Origin: Amycolatopsis lurida
Lineage (GTDB): Bacteria > Actinomycetota > Actinomycetes > Mycobacteriales > Pseudonocardiaceae
DNA length: 64,000 bases
Direction of reading: 5' to 3'
Assembly: GCF_900105055.1 (NCBI RefSeq)
Contig: NZ_FNTA01000004.1
Location: 7,533,501-7,597,500, forward strand
Each line of letters begins with the position of its first letter. Within the stretch, counting starts at the first letter, position 1. Made by a program: the position numbers and the translations under genes. The notes under the pieces are model-generated. The model did no database searches, was not told the DNA's origin, and was given only the letters and a program-made list of their open reading frames with translations. Shown here one piece after another: positions 9,382-46,853 of the stretch.

Positions 9382-9425
9382 TCGTGAGTGGTAATGACGG
9401 TTAGAACCGTCATTACCACTCACGA
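9382..9425. repeat. Perfect 21-nt-arm palindrome, copy 1
   Basis: Two 21-nt arms, separated by AG, are exact complements. Each arm begins TCGTGAGTGGTAATGACGG. It starts three bases after the polA stop and ends five bases before the -10 box of the protease gene. A second copy at 46810-46853 differs at one arm position, and the opposite arm has the matching change. It can act as a hairpin terminator without a U-run, or be a REP-like element. Confidence 0.8.
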
Positions 9426-9442
9426 TCGGTAGGGTCGTTCGG

Positions 9443-11047
9443 GTGACTTCCGAGCGCAGACGCTGGCGGGTGCGGCTGCGCGATCATCGTGGGCGGATCC
9501 TGGGCGCCGGGACCATGCTCGACGGCGAACACCTCCTCACCTGCGCTCACGTGATCGAAGGCCACGACGACGTCGCCGTGGATTTCGTGGCGCTTCCCGG
9601 TGTGGAGCCCGGAATCGCCACGATCCTCGCGCAGGCCGCGCCCATCGGCGACGACGGCGGGGACATCGCGTTGCTCCGGTTGCGTGACGCCGAGGAACAG
9701 ATCTCCGGCGCCCCGCTCCACCGGACGGCTCTCGAAGACGGCCAGCGGGTCCGCGCGTACGGCTTCCCGGCGGGTTCGGACGGCATGTGGTCGCTGGCGA
9801 CCGTCGTCGGCGACGGCGGGCACGGGCTCGAGCGCGTCCAGCTGCACCGGACTCCGGACGCCGAGCCGATCACCCACGGCTTCAGCGGTTCGGCGGTGAT
9901 CGCCGACAAGACCGGCCATGTCGTCGGGATGGTCGCGACCCGGTACGCGACCGAGGCCGCCCGCGTTTCGTGGATGATCCCGGTCGAGACCATGCTCGGG
10001 TACCTGCCCGCTCTGCGCCGCTGGGCCGCAGGCAGCCCCGCTATCGACCCCAGCTTCGTGCAGTACCCGGAACCGCCCGCGATCGATCCGCTGTTCGCCC
10101 GCGAATTCGCCCGGTGGCTCGGCGGGCACGGCCGGGCGGACGTCCGGGTGATCATCATGGGCGCGGACGATTCCGCCGTCGCCGCCTCGCTGCGGCGCGC
10201 CGTGGTCCTCGCCGACCGCGAACGCGGCGCGGGCCGGAGCGTGACCGGCCCGACGGTCCCGCCGCTGGGCAGTGTCGTGCTCGCCGTCGACGCGGTCGGC
10301 AAGACCGCCGAAGAGGTCCGCCGCCGGATCTCCGACCGGCTCGATGTCGCCGCGGATTCGCCCGCCGGCCACCATGCGACGGCCCGCACCGTCGTCGTCT
10401 ACGGGATCGACGAAGCGGCCGAGCCCGACGCGCTCGTCGGTGAGGTGCTCGTGCCGCTCGCTCAGCGCGCACACGAACTCGGGCTGCGGCTCGCGCTGGC
10501 CTTCCGCGAGGAGACCTCGCCGGGGGTGAGCGTGGTCCGGTCGAGCACGGACGTCCTGCCCGCCGCCGAGGACGACACCGAGGGCCGCCTCGCCCTGCTG
10601 GAAACCCGATTGGGTGAACTCGACGGTCTGGAGAAGGACAATCTGAGCGACGCGCCCCGTTTCTCCGGCGCCCCGCACGTCCATCCCAAGGCACGACGGC
10701 TGAGAGGCGCGTTGACGCAACTGCGTTCGGCGGAGCAGGACGGCGACACCGATTGGGTGAAACGGCAGCTCCCGGTCTGCGAGCGCGCCGTCGCCAAGAC
10801 CGTCGAGCGCGCCCGCGGCCTCCGTCGCCTCCTCGACGAGAACCTCGCGCGGCGCGCGGAACTCCGTGCCCGGCTCGACGCGTATGGGGAGATGGCCCGT
10901 AACGGCGGCCTCGTCGAAGACGTCGAACTGGATACCGCCTACGCACCCGCCTGGCGGATGCTCTTCGAAGGACCGTGTGACCTCGTGGCCGCGGCGGCGG
11001 CCGTCGAGCGGTACGCGGACACCGTACGGAAACGGATCGACGGATGA
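9443..11047 (+). CDS. Trypsin-like serine protease fused to a degenerate STAND-like region
   Basis: 534 residues, no signal peptide, so probably cytoplasmic. Residues 1-195 are a trypsin-like domain with the triad in order: His in LLTCAHVIEG, Asp in GDIALLRL, Ser in HGFSGSAVI. Residues 215-370 resemble a STAND NTPase core without a P-loop: IIMGADDSAVAASLRRAV stands where a GxxGxGKS motif would be, and VVVYGIDEAAEPDAL looks like a STAND Walker B (hhhxGhDEA). This is inference from motif shape. Residues 385-534 are charged and helical, possibly coiled coil. The GTG start follows a TAGGGT box by seven bases. The stop overlaps the kinase start by four bases (ATGA), so this is the first gene of the 9.4-17.5 kb block and may cleave, or be controlled by, a block component. 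Confidence 0.8.
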   Translation: MTSERRRWRVRLRDHRGRILGAGTMLDGEHLLTCAHVIEGHDDVAVDFVALPGVEPGIATILAQAAPIGDDGGDIALLRLRDAEEQISGAPLHRTALEDGQRVRAYGFPAGSDGMWSLATVVGDGGHGLERVQLHRTPDAEPITHGFSGSAVIADKTGHVVGMVATRYATEAARVSWMIPVETMLGYLPALRRWAAGSPAIDPSFVQYPEPPAIDPLFAREFARWLGGHGRADVRVIIMGADDSAVAASLRRAVVLADRERGAGRSVTGPTVPPLGSVVLAVDAVGKTAEEVRRRISDRLDVAADSPAGHHATARTVVVYGIDEAAEPDALVGEVLVPLAQRAHELGLRLALAFREETSPGVSVVRSSTDVLPAAEDDTEGRLALLETRLGELDGLEKDNLSDAPRFSGAPHVHPKARRLRGALTQLRSAEQDGDTDWVKRQLPVCERAVAKTVERARGLRRLLDENLARRAELRARLDAYGEMARNGGLVEDVELDTAYAPAWRMLFEGPCDLVAAAAAVERYADTVRKRIDG

Positions 11048-13287
11048 CGGCCTGCGGACACGACGGCTGCCCGGGTGTGCTCGGCAAGACCGGGTTCTGC
11101 AAGATCTGCGGATTGCCGCCGGGGACACCGGAAGAGCCCGCGCCGCGGGAGAAACCGACCCTGGTGATCCCCGGCCCCGGCGAGGCGCAGACCAGGATCA
11201 CCAGCACGGTGGTCACCCGTTCCCAGCAGATCGCGGGCCATGCGAGCGCGGACGAGCGCGTCCCGCTGCCGGTCGTCGAGCTCCCGGACGTCGCGGGCCG
11301 CCTGCTCACCGAGCCGCATGTCCCGGAGGAGCACCGGTTCTGCGGCAAGCACGGGTGCACGGACACCCCGGTCGGCCGCTCGATCGGCGGCGGACCCGCG
11401 CCCACCGAAGGGTTCTGCCCGGTCTGCCGGACGCCGTTCTCCTTCTCGCCCAAGCTCGCGGCGGGCGACGTGGTCGACGGCCGGTACCACGTGCTCGGCT
11501 GTGTCGCGCGCGGCGGACTCGGGTTCGTCTACCTCGCGACGGATTCCGGCCTCGGCGACCGGTACGTCGCGCTCAAGGGCCTGATCAACACGAACGACAC
11601 CGCCGCCGTCCGGATCGCGGAGACCGAAAGCCAGGTGCTCACCGCGCTGGACCATCCGAACGTCGTCCGGATCCTCGACGTGGTCGAATACGAGGACCTC
11701 CGCTACATCGTCATGGAGTTCGTCGACGGGCTTTCCCTGCGGGAGGTCAAGAACCGCGGCCGGGCCGCGCTGGACTCCAGCGAAGGACGGCTGCTCGTCG
11801 AACACGTCGTGGCGTACGGGCGCGAGATCCTGACCGCGCTCGACTACCTGCACGGTGAAGGCCTGCTGTACTGCGACATGAAGCCGGACAACGTGATCCA
11901 CGGCGAGAAGCGGATCAAGCTCATCGATTTCGGCGCCATCCGCAAGATCACCGACGACGAAAGCCCGATCGTCGGCACGGAGCACTATCAGGTGTCCCCG
12001 CGGGAACGGGCGGAACACGGGCTCACCGTCCGCTCCGACATCCACACCGTGGGCGTGACGCTGCGGGAACTCTTCCAGGCCAGCGACGGCTGGTCGGTCA
12101 CCACCGACGCGCGCGGCGTCCGGTTCGGCATCGAATCGTTCCTCCGTGTCCTCGACCGCGCGACCGCCCCGTTCGAGCAACGGTTCGCGACCGCGCGCGA
12201 GATGCTTGTCCAGCTCGACGGCGTGCTCAGCGAGATCCTTTCCTTACGGGACAAACAATCCCGGCCCGCCGGATCGACGCTGTTCGCCGAAGGGGCGGTC
12301 CTGCTCGACGCGGGGCTCGGCCAGGCGCCGCCGCTGGAGCACTGGACGCGGGGGACACCCGTCTCGCTCGGCGCGCGCCCGAGCGCCACGGAGATCGCCG
12401 TCGGTCTCCCGGTGCCGCGCGAGGATCCGGACGATCCGCAGGCGAACTTACTGCGCGCCGTCCGGGCTCCCGATGCCGCACGGCTGGTGAAGAAGCTCGA
12501 CAAGGTACCGGGTTCGGTCGAGGTCGAGTTCCGCCGCTGCCGGGCACAGCTGGAACTCGGGGCGACCGTCGAAGGCGCGCTGGCGGTGGCTGAGGCCGAA
12601 CGGCTGCTCGGCGAGCGCGCCGCCCACGACTGGCGAGTGGCGTGGCACCGCGGCCTGCTCGCGCTCGGCGCCGGCGATTTCGCGGCGGCCAAGGAGAAGT
12701 TCACCGCCGTGTACCGCGACATCCCCGGCGAGGAGCCGCCGAAACTCGCGCTCGGGCTCTGTGAGGAGCACCTCAATGGCGCGGCCGCCGCCGAGCGGTA
12801 CTACGACGCGCTGTGGGTGCGGGACCGGTCGCAGGTCAGCGCGGCGTTCGGCCTCGCGCGGGTCCGGCTGCTGCGCGGCAACCGCGCCGCCGCCGTCGAA
12901 ATCCTCGACCAGGTCCCGGAATTCTCACGTTACGACGAGGCGGCGCGGATCGCCGGGGTACGGGTGCTGTCCGCGCCGATGCCGGGTACCGGTGACCTCC
13001 CGGCGTCGGCCGAACTCGACGACGCCGTGGTCCGGCTGACCGCTTTGGACCTCGACGGCGACTCCCTCGACAGGCTGGTGACGGCCGTGCGCGAGACGGG
13101 ACTGGCCGCAGTCCTCCTCGGGCAGGACGGGATCACCGACGGCGAGATTCTGCGCGCGGGCGAGACGGGTGCCCGCACGGTGCTGGACAAGTCGTACCGG
13201 CGGCTCGCCCACCACGCGCCGGCGCCGGAAGCGCACGACGTGCTGATCGATCTCGCCAATTCCGTGAGACCGGTGACTCTGGTGTGA
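11044..13287 (+). CDS. PknG-like serine/threonine protein kinase
   Basis: 747 residues, very near the length of mycobacterial PknG (750) and with the same three-part plan. The N-terminus has two Cys clusters (CGHDGC...CKICG, residues 4-21; FCGKHGC...CPVC, about 100-128), matching PknG's rubredoxin-like metal site. The kinase domain (about 140-410) has the Gly loop CVARGGLGFVYLA, the lysine in YVALKGL, catalytic loop YCDMKPDN (no Arg before Asp, a non-RD kinase, as in PknG), and LIDFGAI. The C-terminal 300 residues are TPR-like (DFAAAKEKFTAVYRDIPGEE) and the end LIDLANSVRPVT resembles the PknG end. In mycobacteria PknG is run with GlnX and GlnH and phosphorylates GarA; here the partners differ. 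It is a paralogue or analogue, so I give no gene symbol. Confidence 0.88.
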   Translation: MTACGHDGCPGVLGKTGFCKICGLPPGTPEEPAPREKPTLVIPGPGEAQTRITSTVVTRSQQIAGHASADERVPLPVVELPDVAGRLLTEPHVPEEHRFCGKHGCTDTPVGRSIGGGPAPTEGFCPVCRTPFSFSPKLAAGDVVDGRYHVLGCVARGGLGFVYLATDSGLGDRYVALKGLINTNDTAAVRIAETESQVLTALDHPNVVRILDVVEYEDLRYIVMEFVDGLSLREVKNRGRAALDSSEGRLLVEHVVAYGREILTALDYLHGEGLLYCDMKPDNVIHGEKRIKLIDFGAIRKITDDESPIVGTEHYQVSPRERAEHGLTVRSDIHTVGVTLRELFQASDGWSVTTDARGVRFGIESFLRVLDRATAPFEQRFATAREMLVQLDGVLSEILSLRDKQSRPAGSTLFAEGAVLLDAGLGQAPPLEHWTRGTPVSLGARPSATEIAVGLPVPREDPDDPQANLLRAVRAPDAARLVKKLDKVPGSVEVEFRRCRAQLELGATVEGALAVAEAERLLGERAAHDWRVAWHRGLLALGAGDFAAAKEKFTAVYRDIPGEEPPKLALGLCEEHLNGAAAAERYYDALWVRDRSQVSAAFGLARVRLLRGNRAAAVEILDQVPEFSRYDEAARIAGVRVLSAPMPGTGDLPASAELDDAVVRLTALDLDGDSLDRLVTAVRETGLAAVLLGQDGITDGEILRAGETGARTVLDKSYRRLAHHAPAPEAHDVLIDLANSVRPVTLV

Positions 13288-13342
13288 GCGCCTGGCCGAG
13301 GTCGATCGCGGTCGCGGGTTCACCTGGGAAGGAAGGGGAGCG

Positions 13343-14755
13343 ATGAAGGAACCGAGTCTGGGCCTCGAAGTGCACCAGAACAAGTTCCTGGCCGAGGGGG
13401 ACCGGGCGATGACCGCGATCGTCCGGGTCGTCTCCCGCGGCGGTGAGGCGGCCGTGGCCGCGACGGCCGCCGAAGTCCTGATGATCGACTGCTCCAGTTC
13501 GATGCGCTTCCCCAGCACCAAGATCGGCGAGGCCCGGCGGGCGGCAGCGGCGGCCATCGACGTCCTGCCGGACGGCGTGCGGTTCGCCGTCATCCAGGGC
13601 ACCGATCGCGCGAAGATGATCTACCCGGCCGAGGACGGCCTGGTGACCGCCTCCGCGGCGACCCGGGCGGAGGCACGCGCCGCCGTCGAACACCTCGCGG
13701 CCGTCGGCGGCACCGCGATGGGCGCCTGGCTCGCCAAGGCACGGGACCTCTTCGAACTCGTGCCCGACGCCGTCCGCCACGCGATCCTGCTCACCGACGG
13801 CCGCAACGATTCGCAGACGAGAGCCGATCTGATGAGCGTGCTGAACAGCTGCGAGGGCCGGTTCGTCTGCGACGCCAGGGGGATCGGCGATGGCTGGGAG
13901 CCCGCCGAACTCACCCAGATCGGCCGGGTGCTGCGCGGGAACGTCGACTCGGTCGTCGAGGACGACGAACTGGCCGAGGATTTCCGGCAGCTGGTCGAAA
14001 GTGCGATGACGAAGGTGCTGCCCGAGGTCCGCCTGCGCATCGGCACCATGCCGTTCAGCAGGCTGCGGTCGATCAAGCAGGTGTTCCCGGACGAGTACGA
14101 CCTCACCGACCGGTGCCAGGAGGTCGCGGTCCGCGAACAGGAGCTGTCGCTCGGTTCGTTCGCGAGCGACGAGACGCGGGATTACCAGCTGATCCTGGAT
14201 CTCGATCCGGACCTCGAACCCAGGCACGGGCAGGACCGTCAGCTGGCGTGGACGGAACTCGTTCCCGTGCCCGGAGCCACGGTCGAGGAGGACGCGCTGG
14301 CCATCGCGGGGAGGTGGACCCGCGATCCTGTCCCGCCGACGCTGATTCACCCGATGATTTCGAAGTACACCGCCCAGGCCGCTCTCGGCGAGACACTGAC
14401 CTCGGGCGGGGACGCCTACGCGGCAGGAGACCGGGCCGGCGCCGAACGGGACTGGGGCCGGGCGGTCGCCTTGGCCACCGCCGCGGGTGACGAAGAGACG
14501 CTGAGCCGTCTCTCGGGGGTGGTGGAGATCATCGACGCGGAGAACGGGATCGTGCGCTTGCGGCCGGACGCGACGCGCAGTCACGCGTTGCACGTCGTCA
14601 TCCCGTCGAGGGTTTCGGAAATCGCTCGTCCGCAGGAAGATCGGCCGATGCCCGACGGAACCCCGCTCACCTGTGCCGCCTGCCCCGCGCTTTCGCCCGC
14701 CGGGGCGAACTTCTGCGTCGGCTGCGGAAGACCGTTCGGCGAGGCGGTTTCGTGA
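13343..14755 (+). CDS. vWA domain protein with C-terminal zinc ribbon
   Basis: 470 residues, cytoplasmic. The von Willebrand factor A domain begins near residue 45; its metal-ion site is MIDCSSSM (DxSxS) at 47-54, with Thr in GGTAMGAWL and Asp in HAILLTDGRND completing it. After a beta-rich middle region and a helical stretch (LGETLTSGGDAYAAGDRAGA), residues 444-466 form a zinc ribbon, CAACPALS...NFCVGCGRPF. Related ribbons mark actinobacterial kinase-linked proteins. The start has a strong site (GGAAGGAAGGGGAG). There is a 55-bp gap after the kinase gene; the stop overlaps the next start (GTGA). It probably acts as a protein-protein scaffold or substrate of the kinase. Confidence 0.85.
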   Translation: MKEPSLGLEVHQNKFLAEGDRAMTAIVRVVSRGGEAAVAATAAEVLMIDCSSSMRFPSTKIGEARRAAAAAIDVLPDGVRFAVIQGTDRAKMIYPAEDGLVTASAATRAEARAAVEHLAAVGGTAMGAWLAKARDLFELVPDAVRHAILLTDGRNDSQTRADLMSVLNSCEGRFVCDARGIGDGWEPAELTQIGRVLRGNVDSVVEDDELAEDFRQLVESAMTKVLPEVRLRIGTMPFSRLRSIKQVFPDEYDLTDRCQEVAVREQELSLGSFASDETRDYQLILDLDPDLEPRHGQDRQLAWTELVPVPGATVEEDALAIAGRWTRDPVPPTLIHPMISKYTAQAALGETLTSGGDAYAAGDRAGAERDWGRAVALATAAGDEETLSRLSGVVEIIDAENGIVRLRPDATRSHALHVVIPSRVSEIARPQEDRPMPDGTPLTCAACPALSPAGANFCVGCGRPFGEAVS

Positions 14756-15840
14756 CGGCCACCCGGGTGCGGCTGGTCCGGCTCCGCACCGGCCTGCTGG
14801 CGCTCACCCTCGCGGTACTGGTGGTGTCGCTGTGGGCGTTCCAGAACGTCCAGAACACGGCGGAGACCGTCCGCGACCGCACCGCGCACGCGGTACTCGA
14901 AGTGACCGCCGCCCGGGCCGCGCTGGTGGCCGCCGACGCCGCGGCGATCGCGAGTTTCGCTTCCGGCGAGGCGAGGCTCGCCGGGCCGGGGCAGGAGTAC
15001 TCGAACCAGTTGGCGCTGGCGAGCCAAAGTCTCGCGAGGGTCGCGGAGTTCAACCAGGCGGGTGAGGAAGGCGGTAACGCGCTTCAGGTGATCGAAAGCC
15101 AGGTCGCGGCCTACTCGGGCTCCATCGGGCAGGCCGACGTGCACTTCCGTCAGCCGGACGCCGCCGTACTGGGCGCGGTCGATCTCTGGCACGCCTCAAG
15201 GTTGCTGCACGCTTCGGGCGGTGTCCTGGAGGAGCTGGACCTGTTGCAGGGCAGGCAACGCGAGGCACTGAACCGGCAGCTGGCGGCCACCGGGATGAGC
15301 CTCGCGATGCTCCCGCTGTGGCTTCTGCCGGTGCTCGCGCTGCTGGTACTGCTGGTCCTCACCCAGCTGTATCTGAGGAAACGGTTCCGCCGCGTGGCGA
15401 ACGTCCCGCTGCTCGCGGCGACCGTGCTGATCGCCGCCATCGGGGTCGGCCTGGTGTTCACCCTGGTCAGCCGTGACCGGCTGGATTCGGTCGGGGAGCG
15501 GCTCGACGGCGTCGCCGCCGCGCGGGCCGCGCAGATCCAGGCGGCCGACGACGAAGGCCAGCGGCGGCTCGCCGACCTGGTGGCCGGGTACTGCGACGAG
15601 GAACAGGGGTGCGGTGTGACCGTCGACGGGTTCCGGGAGCGGGTACGGCAGGCCTCCGCGCCGCCGACCGACAACACGCGGGTGGCCACGGCGGGCGCGA
15701 GAGCGGTGGCGGCCGACGCCTCCGCCGCGGCCGAATCCGGCGGGCGGGAATTCCTGATCCCGGCAGGCACCCTGCTCGCGGGCGGGCTCGTCCTGCTCGG
15801 CCTGCACGCCCGGATCGACGAATACCGGTACCGCCCGTGA
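14752..15840 (+). CDS. Four-helix membrane protein, GlnX-like in context
   Basis: 362 residues with four predicted membrane helices: about 12-33, 181-205, 216-238 and 335-352. Helices 1-2 enclose an outside helical domain of about 145 residues, and helices 3-4 one of about 95 residues containing CDEEQGC, which could form a disulfide. This topology is like a chemoreceptor sensor. In mycobacteria the PknG operon carries GlnX, a membrane protein that passes a signal from the lipoprotein GlnH to the kinase. The present gene sits between the kinase/vWA genes and a binding-protein gene, which fits the same job. Sequence identity to GlnX cannot be judged here. The start overlaps the vWA stop, and the stop overlaps the binding-protein start. 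Confidence 0.75.
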   Translation: MTATRVRLVRLRTGLLALTLAVLVVSLWAFQNVQNTAETVRDRTAHAVLEVTAARAALVAADAAAIASFASGEARLAGPGQEYSNQLALASQSLARVAEFNQAGEEGGNALQVIESQVAAYSGSIGQADVHFRQPDAAVLGAVDLWHASRLLHASGGVLEELDLLQGRQREALNRQLAATGMSLAMLPLWLLPVLALLVLLVLTQLYLRKRFRRVANVPLLAATVLIAAIGVGLVFTLVSRDRLDSVGERLDGVAAARAAQIQAADDEGQRRLADLVAGYCDEEQGCGVTVDGFRERVRQASAPPTDNTRVATAGARAVAADASAAAESGGREFLIPAGTLLAGGLVLLGLHARIDEYRYRP

Positions 15841-17126
15841 AACGACTGCTGGCCTTGGTGATGGCGCTGTCGCTGGTCGCGGGCGGCTGTTCGGCGTCGG
15901 CGGAGGACGGGCCGGTCGTCGTCCTCGCGTCCTGGACCGGGGAGGAGGAGAAGGCGTTCCGCCAGGTGCTGGACGCTTTCAAGGCCGACACCGGGATCGA
16001 CTACCTCTACGAGGGCACCCGTGCCGTCGATCAGGTGCTCGCTTCGGACGTCCAGCGCGGCACGCCGCCGGACGTGGCCGTCCTGCCCAACGCCGGGGTG
16101 CTGGCGAAGTACCAGAAGTCGGGTGACCTGCTGCCGCTCGACGAAGACCTTTCGGCCGCGGTGACTCGGTCGTTCAGCCCGCAATGGGTCAGGCTGCAGC
16201 AGATCGGCACCGAGAAGGTGTACGCGGTCGCCGTGAAGGCCGATCTCAAGAGCCTGATCTGGTACAACCCCGCTCGGCTGACCGGGATCCGTCCCACGAC
16301 GTTCGCCGGGCTCCGTGAGTACTCCGCCGGGCTGGCGGCCGCCGGGGGCACGCCCTGGTGCGTCGGGATGGGTGCCCCGCCCGCGTCGGGCTGGCCGGGA
16401 ACCGACTGGATCGAGGACATCCTGTTGCACTCGGCGGGCCCCGGCAAGTACTGGCAGTGGGCGGCAGGCGGCCTCGAATGGACGTCCCCGGAGGTCAAAC
16501 AGGCCTGGCTGGACTGGGGTTCCGTGCTCGAGCCCGCCGCGATCCGCGGCGGTACCGCGGCCGCCCTGCTGACCGACTTCGGCGACGCGGGCAAGCCGAT
16601 GTTCACCGATCCGCCCGGCTGCGCGCTCGAACATCAGGCGTCGTTCATCATGAGCCGGTACCAGAACTTCCAGCGACCGGACGGGACGTTCCCCAAGCCC
16701 GGCACCGATTTCGACTTCCTCCCCTTCCCAGGGCGGGACGTCTCCGAGGTCGCCGCCGACCTCGCCGGGATGTTCCAGGACACGCCCGGTGCACGAAAGC
16801 TGATCGAATTCCTCGCTTCGGAGAAGGCACAGCGGATCTGGCCGTCGATTCCTCGCGCGAACGCCTTCTCCGCCAACGGGAAGGTCGGCCTCGACGTCTA
16901 TCCGGACCAGGTGAGCCGCCGGGTGGCGGACACGATCACCACGGCGTCCGCGCTGTGCTTCGACGCGTCGGACCTGATGCCCGCGACGATGACCGGCGCG
17001 TTCCACCGTGCGGTCCTGGAATACCTGAGCAACCGGGACCGCCTGGAGATCCTGCTGAAACAACTCGACGACGTCCAAAAGAGCATCCAGCCCGGCGAAT
17101 GGCTGAATATCCACTGTGGACAGTGA
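15837..17126 (+). CDS. Extracellular solute-binding lipoprotein, family-1 (sugar-type)
   Basis: 429 residues. The N-terminus KRLLALVMALSLVAGGCSAS is a lipoprotein signal with the likely lipidated Cys near residue 18. The mature part has the family-1 binding-protein pattern: VVLASWTGEEEKAFRQVLDA, GTPPDVAVLPNAGVLAKY, a Trp-rich cleft region and FLASEKAQRIWPS near the end. No permease or ATPase genes are nearby, so it is more likely a sensor than a transporter part. In the mycobacterial PknG operon the equivalent is GlnH, a family-3 amino-acid binder; here a sugar-type fold is used instead. The start GTG overlaps the upstream stop (GTGA); it is in frame with a longer, unsupported reading frame from 15609. 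Confidence 0.85.
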   Translation: MKRLLALVMALSLVAGGCSASAEDGPVVVLASWTGEEEKAFRQVLDAFKADTGIDYLYEGTRAVDQVLASDVQRGTPPDVAVLPNAGVLAKYQKSGDLLPLDEDLSAAVTRSFSPQWVRLQQIGTEKVYAVAVKADLKSLIWYNPARLTGIRPTTFAGLREYSAGLAAAGGTPWCVGMGAPPASGWPGTDWIEDILLHSAGPGKYWQWAAGGLEWTSPEVKQAWLDWGSVLEPAAIRGGTAAALLTDFGDAGKPMFTDPPGCALEHQASFIMSRYQNFQRPDGTFPKPGTDFDFLPFPGRDVSEVAADLAGMFQDTPGARKLIEFLASEKAQRIWPSIPRANAFSANGKVGLDVYPDQVSRRVADTITTASALCFDASDLMPATMTGAFHRAVLEYLSNRDRLEILLKQLDDVQKSIQPGEWLNIHCGQ

Positions 17127-17135
17127 GGAGCATCG

Positions 17136-17459
17136 GTGAACGACCTGGCGCGGTTCCCCCTCGAAGGCGGCGGTTCGGTGGTCGTCGAGATCGACCCGGT
17201 CCCCGGTACCGCCCGGGTCTCCCGGCGTGACGGCCTGGTCGAGGACGCCAAGGGGTCCTTCGAAGCGGCGCTCGCGAACGTCAAGGACGCGGCCGTGGCG
17301 GCACTGGACACCTTCCGGTCGATGACCAGGGGACCGGACGAGGTCGAGCTCAAGTTCGGCGTCAAGCTGACCGCGCAGGCGGGCGCGGTCATCGCGAAAA
17401 CGGGCCTGGAGGGGAACTTCGAGGTCAAGCTGAAGTGGGCCAAGGAGACCGAAGCCTGA
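17136..17459 (+). CDS. Small Trypco1-like (trypsin-co-occurring) protein
   Basis: 107 residues, soluble. It resembles the CU044_2847/Trypco1 family, small proteins found beside trypsin-like proteases in predicted actinobacterial conflict systems: an opening beta hairpin (GGGSVVVEIDP), a central helix (SFEAALANVKDAAVAALDTF) and the closing strands VELKFGVKLTAQAGAVIAKT and GNFEVKLKWAKE. The GTG start has GTGAGGAG upstream. It is the last gene of the 9.4-17.5 kb block; a 21-bp repeat array begins three bases after its stop. The presence of a trypsin-like protease at the other end of the same block supports the call. Confidence 0.78.
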   Translation: MNDLARFPLEGGGSVVVEIDPVPGTARVSRRDGLVEDAKGSFEAALANVKDAAVAALDTFRSMTRGPDEVELKFGVKLTAQAGAVIAKTGLEGNFEVKLKWAKETEA

Positions 17460-17461
17460 AC

Positions 17462-17616
17462 CCGTAACACGCGTGCTCGAAGCCGTAACTCACGTGATCA
17501 GAGCCGTAACCCGCGTGCTTGAAGCCGTAACACGTCCCCACCGTGTCTTCCGGCTCCGATCACGCGAGTTACGAGTCCAAGCACGCGAGTTACGGCTTCG
17601 AGCACGCGAGTTACGG
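17462..17616. repeat. Array of 21-bp units, four direct then three inverted
   Basis: CCGTAAC begins at 17462, 17483, 17504 and 17525, an exact 21-bp period. The complement begins GTTACG at 17568, 17589 and 17610, again 21 bp apart. Each direct unit has the core ACACGCGTG (or a close variant) at positions 6-14. The array lies between the convergent Trypco1-like and TetR genes and can fold into one long hairpin. A second array with other outer bases but the same core and period is at 36541-36664. Period 21 puts units on the same face of the helix. Confidence 0.85.
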
Positions 17617-46809: not shown

Positions 46810-46853
46810 TCGTGAGTGGTAAGGACGGTTCTAACCGTCCTTACCACTCACGA
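46810..46853. repeat. Perfect 21-nt-arm palindrome, copy 2
   Basis: Same element as at 9382-9425, with loop CT. Each arm begins TCGTGAGTGGTAAGGACGG. Relative to copy 1 the arm has G for T at position 14 and the other arm has C for A at the matching place, so the stem is kept. It lies between the convergent S9 peptidase and RES toxin genes and can end both transcripts. Confidence 0.8.

Follow-up and report, generated by a model that had tools for sequence, protein, structure and literature searches.

The window, by which we mean the whole 64,000-nucleotide stretch analysed here from the 9.05 Mb genome of Amycolatopsis lurida, contains a block of six open reading frames on the + strand. A domain scan placed polA upstream of the block and a convergent TetR gene downstream. 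The ORF coordinates confirmed what a preliminary description of this DNA had read from the letters alone, namely six genes running in a single direction, with three junctions overlapping by 4 nt and two gaps of 55 and 9 nt. The features are as follows.

9443..11047, + strand: protease of the Trypsin/HtrA fold, 534 aa
10079..10552, + strand: middle alpha/beta domain of the protease (residues 213-370, from the secondary structure of the model)
10577..11041, + strand: C-terminal helical adaptor of the protease (residues 379-533)
11044..13287, + strand: PknG paralogue, with an N-terminal Cys motif
11260-11457, + strand: rubredoxin-like part of the kinase protein
11485-12243, + strand: kinase part
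12376-13278, + strand: TPR part
13343..14755, + strand: vWA protein (VWA_3 and VWA_3_C; Pfam scan)
13475-13942, + strand: vWA domain with MIDAS
14471-14581, + strand: VWA_3_C
14672-14725, + strand: C-terminal zinc ribbon of the vWA protein
14752..15840, + strand: GlnX-like membrane transducer (NF058618 match under the cut-off)
15811-15825, + strand: C-terminal R-x-x-E-Y of the transducer
15837..17126, + strand: sugar-type solute-binding lipoprotein (SBP family 1; SBP_bac_1)
15888-15890, + strand: lipobox Cys codon of the lipoprotein
17136..17459, + strand: Trypco1 protein (PF19493)

Repeats lie on both sides of the block. A perfect 21-nt inverted repeat with a 2-nt loop is located between polA and the operon (9382-9425), and a second, near-identical copy occurs in the window at 46813-46850. 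With one mismatch allowed, the core of this palindrome is found genome-wide 139 times forward and 135 times reverse, while the backwards control gave 0, and among the matches listed the copies mostly form facing pairs. The element is a high-copy dispersed palindrome, perhaps of a terminator-like kind. In the convergent gap between the Trypco1 and TetR genes (17462-17616), three direct repeats spaced by 21 nt and three in the opposite orientation together form a 72-nt inverted repeat (82%).

Recurrence of the block across genomes

Searches of 297 genomes from the window's family, using the kinase (E 1e-40), the vWA protein (E 1e-40) and the protease (E 1e-30) as queries, gave matches in 216, 113 and 52 genomes, respectively. 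Because many of the 216 kinase-matching genomes hold canonical-type kinases, the distribution of the block in the family is patchy. The 52 genomes contain 57 protease places; by a script recount, 48 of them begin no more than 6 kb from a vWA place. The protease cut-off is strict, and the real blocks of three genomes (G205, G254 and G295) fall outside the 57.

Loci were fetched around 60 kinase matches in the family, 20 vWA matches in the class and the best 80 named SBP matches, with 14 added later. The gene caller misses some genes behind antisense ORFs, and the counts were therefore taken from six-frame profile searches, tabulated for 161 loci (the first 160 fetched plus L003). The named and unnamed sets overlap and were chosen by matches, and the counts show which combinations exist rather than frequencies in a random sample. 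The trypsin part, kinase, vWA, GlnX and a family-1 SBP (SBP_1) occur together at 52 loci with Trypco1 and at 26 without it, and eight further loci combine trypsin, kinase, vWA, GlnX and Trypco1 with GlnH. Eight minimal loci hold kinase, GlnX and SBP_1 only, nine are canonical (kinase, GlnX and GlnH), 14 have GlnX and SBP_1 without a kinase (one more has a GlnH match nearby), and 12 have the SBP alone. At four loci, two of them non-redundant, the protease is fused to the kinase; these lack the adaptor and the vWA protein, and retain GlnX, SBP and Trypco1. The remaining combinations are singletons. Named carriers include Amycolatopsis, Actinokineospora, Saccharothrix, Lentzea, Kutzneria, Crossiella, Micromonospora, Kitasatospora and Streptomyces, among others. 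In one group within the window's genus (L045, L200 and L201), the protease is directly preceded by a small additional kinase-like gene.

The proposal that the six genes form one functional block gained support from this survey: the gene set, and mostly its order, recurs in many genera far above chance. Exact 4-nt overlaps recur as well, at 52 of 65 protease-kinase and 53 of 60 GlnX-SBP junctions between called genes. One could still suppose that unrelated genes cluster here by chance or only by position, given that GlnX-SBP pairs can stand alone and that seven of the 57 protease places lie apart from vWA matches and are unfused to a kinase. Yet the conserved order, overlaps and co-occurrence over many genera, the existence of fusions and a reordered but complete six-gene set (L205) make this hardly credible. 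We rejected it, considering the 48 protease places beside a vWA place, the two of the 57 that are fusions to the kinase (with no vWA there), and the single clade formed by the trypsin-linked kinases.

A PknG paralogue in its own clade

The preliminary description had called the second gene product PknG-like, and its Pkinase, PknG_rubred and PknG_TPR domains bear this out (Pfam scan, 1e-59). PknG_TPR scored 202 bits (cut-off 27) and PknG_rubred 50 bits (cut-off 28.5). The sole other PknG_TPR gene of the genome is the canonical PknG, which is 44% identical to the block kinase over residues 72-746. A kinase tree was built by the quick method from the 111 rows that remained after 90% de-duplication, and was rooted at its midpoint. 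One of its branches, with SH-aLRT 100, has on one side 61 SBP_1-type, 11 GlnH-type, two fused and five minimal kinases, together with three untyped ones (L026, L148 and L204). The other side holds 19 PP2C/FHA-type kinases, eight canonical ones and two untyped ones (L056 and L103). All 74 SBP_1-type, GlnH-type and fused trypsin-type rows fall together. The block kinase is thus separated from canonical PknG by this branch and does not share a clade with it as an orthologue would. The suggested linkage of the kinase to the protease and vWA genes likewise holds within its own clade but not for canonical PknG: all nine canonical loci are without protease, vWA and Trypco1.

The catalytic K/E/D/N/D residues are intact in all 60 aligned SBP_1-type kinase rows, and the MIDAS residues in 61 of 62 SBP_1-type vWA rows; because of this, both the kinase and the vWA protein of the block are expected to be functional. 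Five kinase rows are entirely without protease and vWA. They belong to two separate lineages in which protease, vWA and Trypco1 are missing, and with them the rubredoxin-like part of the kinase (0/5 rows). The rubredoxin-like cysteines are also absent from one of the two fused kinases.

A protease with an HtrA-like fold and a shared adaptor domain

The first gene product matches Trypsin_2 (E 3e-14, Pfam scan). A fold search with its structure model (pLDDT 88) was filled by trypsin-fold chains, and the trypsin part resembles DegS, MucD and Deg. The likeness to HtrA/Deg proteases is one of fold in the protease domain. The block protease fails a test of HtrA/Deg membership by the curated HtrA model and a PDZ domain, and it differs from these enzymes in having no PDZ match, in carrying the middle and adaptor domains, and in showing no signal peptide by eye, on which grounds it is probably cytosolic. 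The model of the middle domain suggests a layout like that of P-loop NTPases, with no Walker A motif, and none of the 28 members scanned gave a convincing Pfam family for it. The C-terminal adaptor is homologous to the protein that stands ahead of PknG in the PP2C/FHA-type loci described below: the protease profile recognised each of the 15 such proteins tested (best E 2.6e-25; HHalign probability 99.5) and none of their reversed copies (0/15). In the protease-kinase fusions the protease match ends before the adaptor domain, which is gone.

The catalytic triad, H36/D74/S148 in profile columns, is intact in 58 of 61 non-redundant SBP_1-type kinase-linked loci. The three altered ones read HNS (L008), HDH (L025) and RE- (L129), and at L042 the protease is divided between two ORFs. 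Besides G124:C156 and G273:C20, the seven unlinked protease places comprise L194-L198, which were examined. All four proteases with neither kinase nor Trypco1 nearby (L194-L197) have lost catalytic residues, probably in two events. At L194, L195 and L196 the dead solo protease stands at the polA/TetR locus where relatives hold the whole operon. The fifth, the unlinked protease of L198, is catalytically intact and has no kinase; it is a 1366-aa protein with a trypsin part (L198:9188-13604), and the adjacent Trypco1 gene lies on the other strand. By its gene content, L198 is a second, kinase-less context for trypsin and Trypco1.

Two mutually exclusive outfits of the kinase-vWA core

In loci from across the Actinomycetes, the kinase-vWA core is found with one or the other of two outfits, which exclude each other. 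Among the 161 loci, 93 have the trypsin part (65 of them with Trypco1), 19 have PP2C and/or FHA, and none has both; once the 14 loci fetched afterwards and the window itself are added, none of the 106 loci with a trypsin part has PP2C or FHA. The vWA homologue of most of the 20 class loci sits in a set made up of GlnX, GlnH, a ~420-aa protein, PknG, PP2C, vWA and FHA, in which GlnX-GlnH takes either end. One class locus (L098) is a full six-gene block instead, as a second copy in a genome that has the PP2C/FHA-type set.

The PknG-PP2C-vWA-FHA loci (most of L094-L110, from other families of the class) have kinase, vWA and GlnX in common with the block, as well as a protein ahead of the kinase with the common adaptor domain. 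In these loci, however, the ~420-aa protein ahead of PknG has no trypsin match, the vWA protein lacks the zinc ribbon, the SBP is GlnH-like, and PP2C and FHA are present. PP2C and FHA are missing from the block in the window, which places it outside the kinase-PP2C-vWA(-FHA) cassettes. The four-Cys zinc ribbon itself is found in 54 of 62 SBP_1-type, 11 of 11 GlnH-type and 0 of 19 PP2C/FHA-type vWA proteins. The PP2C/FHA-type loci resemble the kinase-PP2C-vWA theme described in PMC7159879.

The receptor: a sugar-type lipoprotein paired with a GlnX-like transducer

The membrane protein had been described as a four-helix protein, a topology that reflects hydrophobic stretches judged by eye. Pfam gives no significant match for it, and the NCBIfam GlnX subfamily NF058618 matches with E 2e-26 and 93 bits, under the curated cut-off of 250 bits. 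This match supports its role as the membrane relay: by sequence it is a distant GlnX homologue, and its position and tail motif suggest that it works in a GlnX-like manner. The C-terminal R-x-x-E-Y, in its exact form or as a near variant that the script allowed, was counted with redundant loci included, in 83 of 89 SBP_1-type, 11 of 11 GlnH-type, 9 of 9 canonical, 15 of 17 PP2C/FHA-type, 8 of 8 minimal, 4 of 4 fused, 5 of 5 untyped and 13 of 16 kinase-less loci. The motif is likely the contact with PknG; binding of the PknG TPR domain by cytoplasmic segments of GlnX has been proposed (PMC9769921).

The lipoprotein matches SBP_bac_1 (E 7e-17, Pfam scan) and gives no match to SBP_bac_3, the SBP family 3 of GlnH, up to E 1. 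Its lipobox Cys18 is conserved (0.95 of 41). The nearest solved relatives are AcbH, NagB1, NagB2 and another sugar-binding lipoprotein (E 3e-15 to 4e-11), and the same matches include two receptor fusion constructs. These results agree with its earlier assignment to a different, sugar-type family and point to a sugar-type ligand. Among the best 80 SBP matches, the closest named relatives (81-91% identical) are from Amycolatopsis species. By domain content, the receptor part of the block is an SBP-GlnX-PknG sensor in which a family-1, sugar-type SBP stands in for GlnH.

In a GlnX tree of 107 rows with 200 bootstrap trees, the label "next to SBP_1" (70 rows) is separated from the rest by one change in 200 of 200 trees. 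The GlnX proteins of the 11 GlnH-type trypsin loci group with canonical GlnX, and the kinases of the same loci sit in the trypsin group. The receptor pairs are thus exchanged whole: GlnX and SBP travel together, and swaps of the pair have taken place beneath one kinase-protease-vWA core. One locus (L040) carries both receptor pairs. These swaps go beyond the preliminary description, as do the PP2C/FHA-type outfit and the adaptor domain shared with it.

GlnX-SBP_1 pairs also exist as orphan receptors, with neither a kinase nor a protease or vWA match nearby (L133, L135, L146, L150, L153 at a contig end, L155, L156, L158, L160, L161, L166, L171, L172, L179 and L191). Their hosts include Actinomadura, Actinoplanes, Kitasatospora, Streptomyces and others. 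A fixed other partner was rejected, as none was common among nine neighbours from seven of the 15 loci, which are mixed metabolic, transport, regulatory and unknown genes. In MAGs of Chloroflexi and other groups, SBP relatives precede two permease-sized genes, an arrangement that, by sizes only, is like that of ABC importers (L157, L159, L162, L185, L187 and L190).

Trypco1 and the relationship to conflict systems

The last gene product, previously noted as Trypco1-like, has a clear domain match (PF19493, 98.3 bits against a cut-off of 24.6, E 4e-28), the only Trypco1 match of the genome. Its structure model is weak (pLDDT 55), with a strand-strand-helix-strand-strand layout. The protein is optional, being present in 57 of 84 loci of the 161-locus table with trypsin part, kinase and SBP_1; the 27 without it are otherwise complete.

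Trypco1 was named for its co-occurrence with trypsin in VMAP-MoxR-vWA systems, as stated in a part of PMC7159879, and is termed an adapter in a part of PMC10907252. The block shares vWA, a trypsin-like peptidase and Trypco1 with these ternary systems, but its input is an SBP-GlnX pair with a PknG kinase. The suggestion that the block might be a conflict system is not borne out by these shared parts. MoxR and VMAP, the partners that define such systems, do not lie near it: the nearest AAA_3 match on the window's contig is more than 1.1 Mb away, and the only VMAP-C match of the genome is about 5 Mb away. Membership in the VMAP ternary systems was therefore rejected for want of AAA_3 or VMAP-C near the vWA gene in this genome. 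PADLOC found no known anti-phage system; it returned kinase- and protease-domain matches only (best for the protease, RT-Protease_XI at 1.5e-10) and left four of the six proteins unmatched.

A broader form of the idea is that the sensor, or the vWA and Trypco1 proteins, would detect invasion or damage to kin, and the kinase would license a cell-disabling intracellular protease, in a conflict or programmed death response. Trypco1 and trypsin as adaptor and effector of predicted conflict systems (parts of PMC7159879 and PMC10907252), the patchy presence of the protease, the occurrence of several PknG-type sets within one genome, the four inactivated solo proteases and the separate trypsin protein beside a Trypco1 gene in L198 would fit such a role. 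Nevertheless, we regard it as unlikely, considering the missing MoxR and VMAP partners and the PADLOC result. In addition, part of Amycolatopsis keeps the block stably next to polA (identified in some cases by its size alone), a nutrient-type SBP outside the cell would be an odd sensor of invasion, and the canonical relatives control metabolism.

Discussion

In the canonical system, a signal path from SBP through GlnX to PknG is the current model (parts of PMC6069109 and PMC9769921), and other kinases linked to SBPs, SGR_4432 and SCO1468, are mentioned in a part of PMC6069109. The block resembles the GlnH-GlnX-PknG system of mycobacteria and corynebacteria in its SBP lipoprotein, its GlnX-type transducer, the rubredoxin-like, kinase and TPR parts of its PknG, and the R-x-x-E-Y tail of GlnX, which is common to the block and to canonical loci of the window's family. 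It differs in that the SBP is of family 1 rather than 3, that the kinase is a paralogue of another clade, and that protease, vWA and Trypco1 are added.

The block might accordingly be regarded as a nutrient-sensing twin of GlnH-GlnX-PknG, in which the target of the kinase would be a GarA-like FHA protein located elsewhere, with turnover or scaffolding as the only functions of protease, vWA and Trypco1. The relationship of the SBP to sugar-transport SBPs, the permease-sized neighbours of its relatives outside the actinobacteria and the eight minimal kinase-GlnX-SBP loci lend this some weight. It seems improbable, however, in view of the separate group formed by the trypsin-linked kinases, the complete absence of PP2C and FHA from the trypsin type, and the active site that is kept in nearly all kinase-linked proteases and lost in the four solo ones without a nearby kinase or Trypco1 gene.

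We lean, with modest confidence, towards the reading that the six genes encode one signalling complex, in which a ligand-gated PknG paralogue controls a tethered cytosolic protease. The signal would run from the SBP through GlnX and the kinase to the protease and vWA, as the preliminary description had proposed. The sugar-type lipoprotein outside the membrane would report its ligand to the GlnX-like transducer, the conserved C-terminal tail of which would act on the PknG paralogue. The output arm of the kinase would be the intracellular HtrA-fold protease, tethered via its helical adaptor and the vWA protein. Phosphorylation of the protease, of vWA, of Trypco1 or of a protein that they present may then switch proteolysis; we infer both the tethering of the protease and its control by the kinase. 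Trypco1 would be a frequent, dispensable adaptor or regulator. The block may descend from the actinobacterial PknG-PP2C-vWA-FHA cassette, or share a common ancestor with it.

Among the matches listed from the open-licence PMC literature, no title or abstract joins PknG with a trypsin/vWA/Trypco1 block, and the word PknG occurs 0 times in the main texts of PMC7159879 and PMC10907252. As far as the literature searched goes, we rate the block as a previously undescribed variant of PknG signalling. On a larger scale, it is conceivable, and we put it forward tentatively, that PknG is an actinobacterial plug-in platform with modular receptor pairs and output arms, the protease arm converting a glycan or sugar cue from outside the cell into intracellular proteolysis that is regulated and perhaps self-destructive.

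If our reading is true, an extracellular binding protein would control an intracellular protease across the membrane via a eukaryotic-type kinase, and an outside chemical signal may become protein destruction directly. The exchanged receptors would provide a natural receptor-swap series for the recognition by GlnX of its binding protein. Questions about PknG, such as what its rubredoxin and TPR parts hold, how GlnX and PknG communicate and what role Trypco1 plays, would also become testable outside pathogens.
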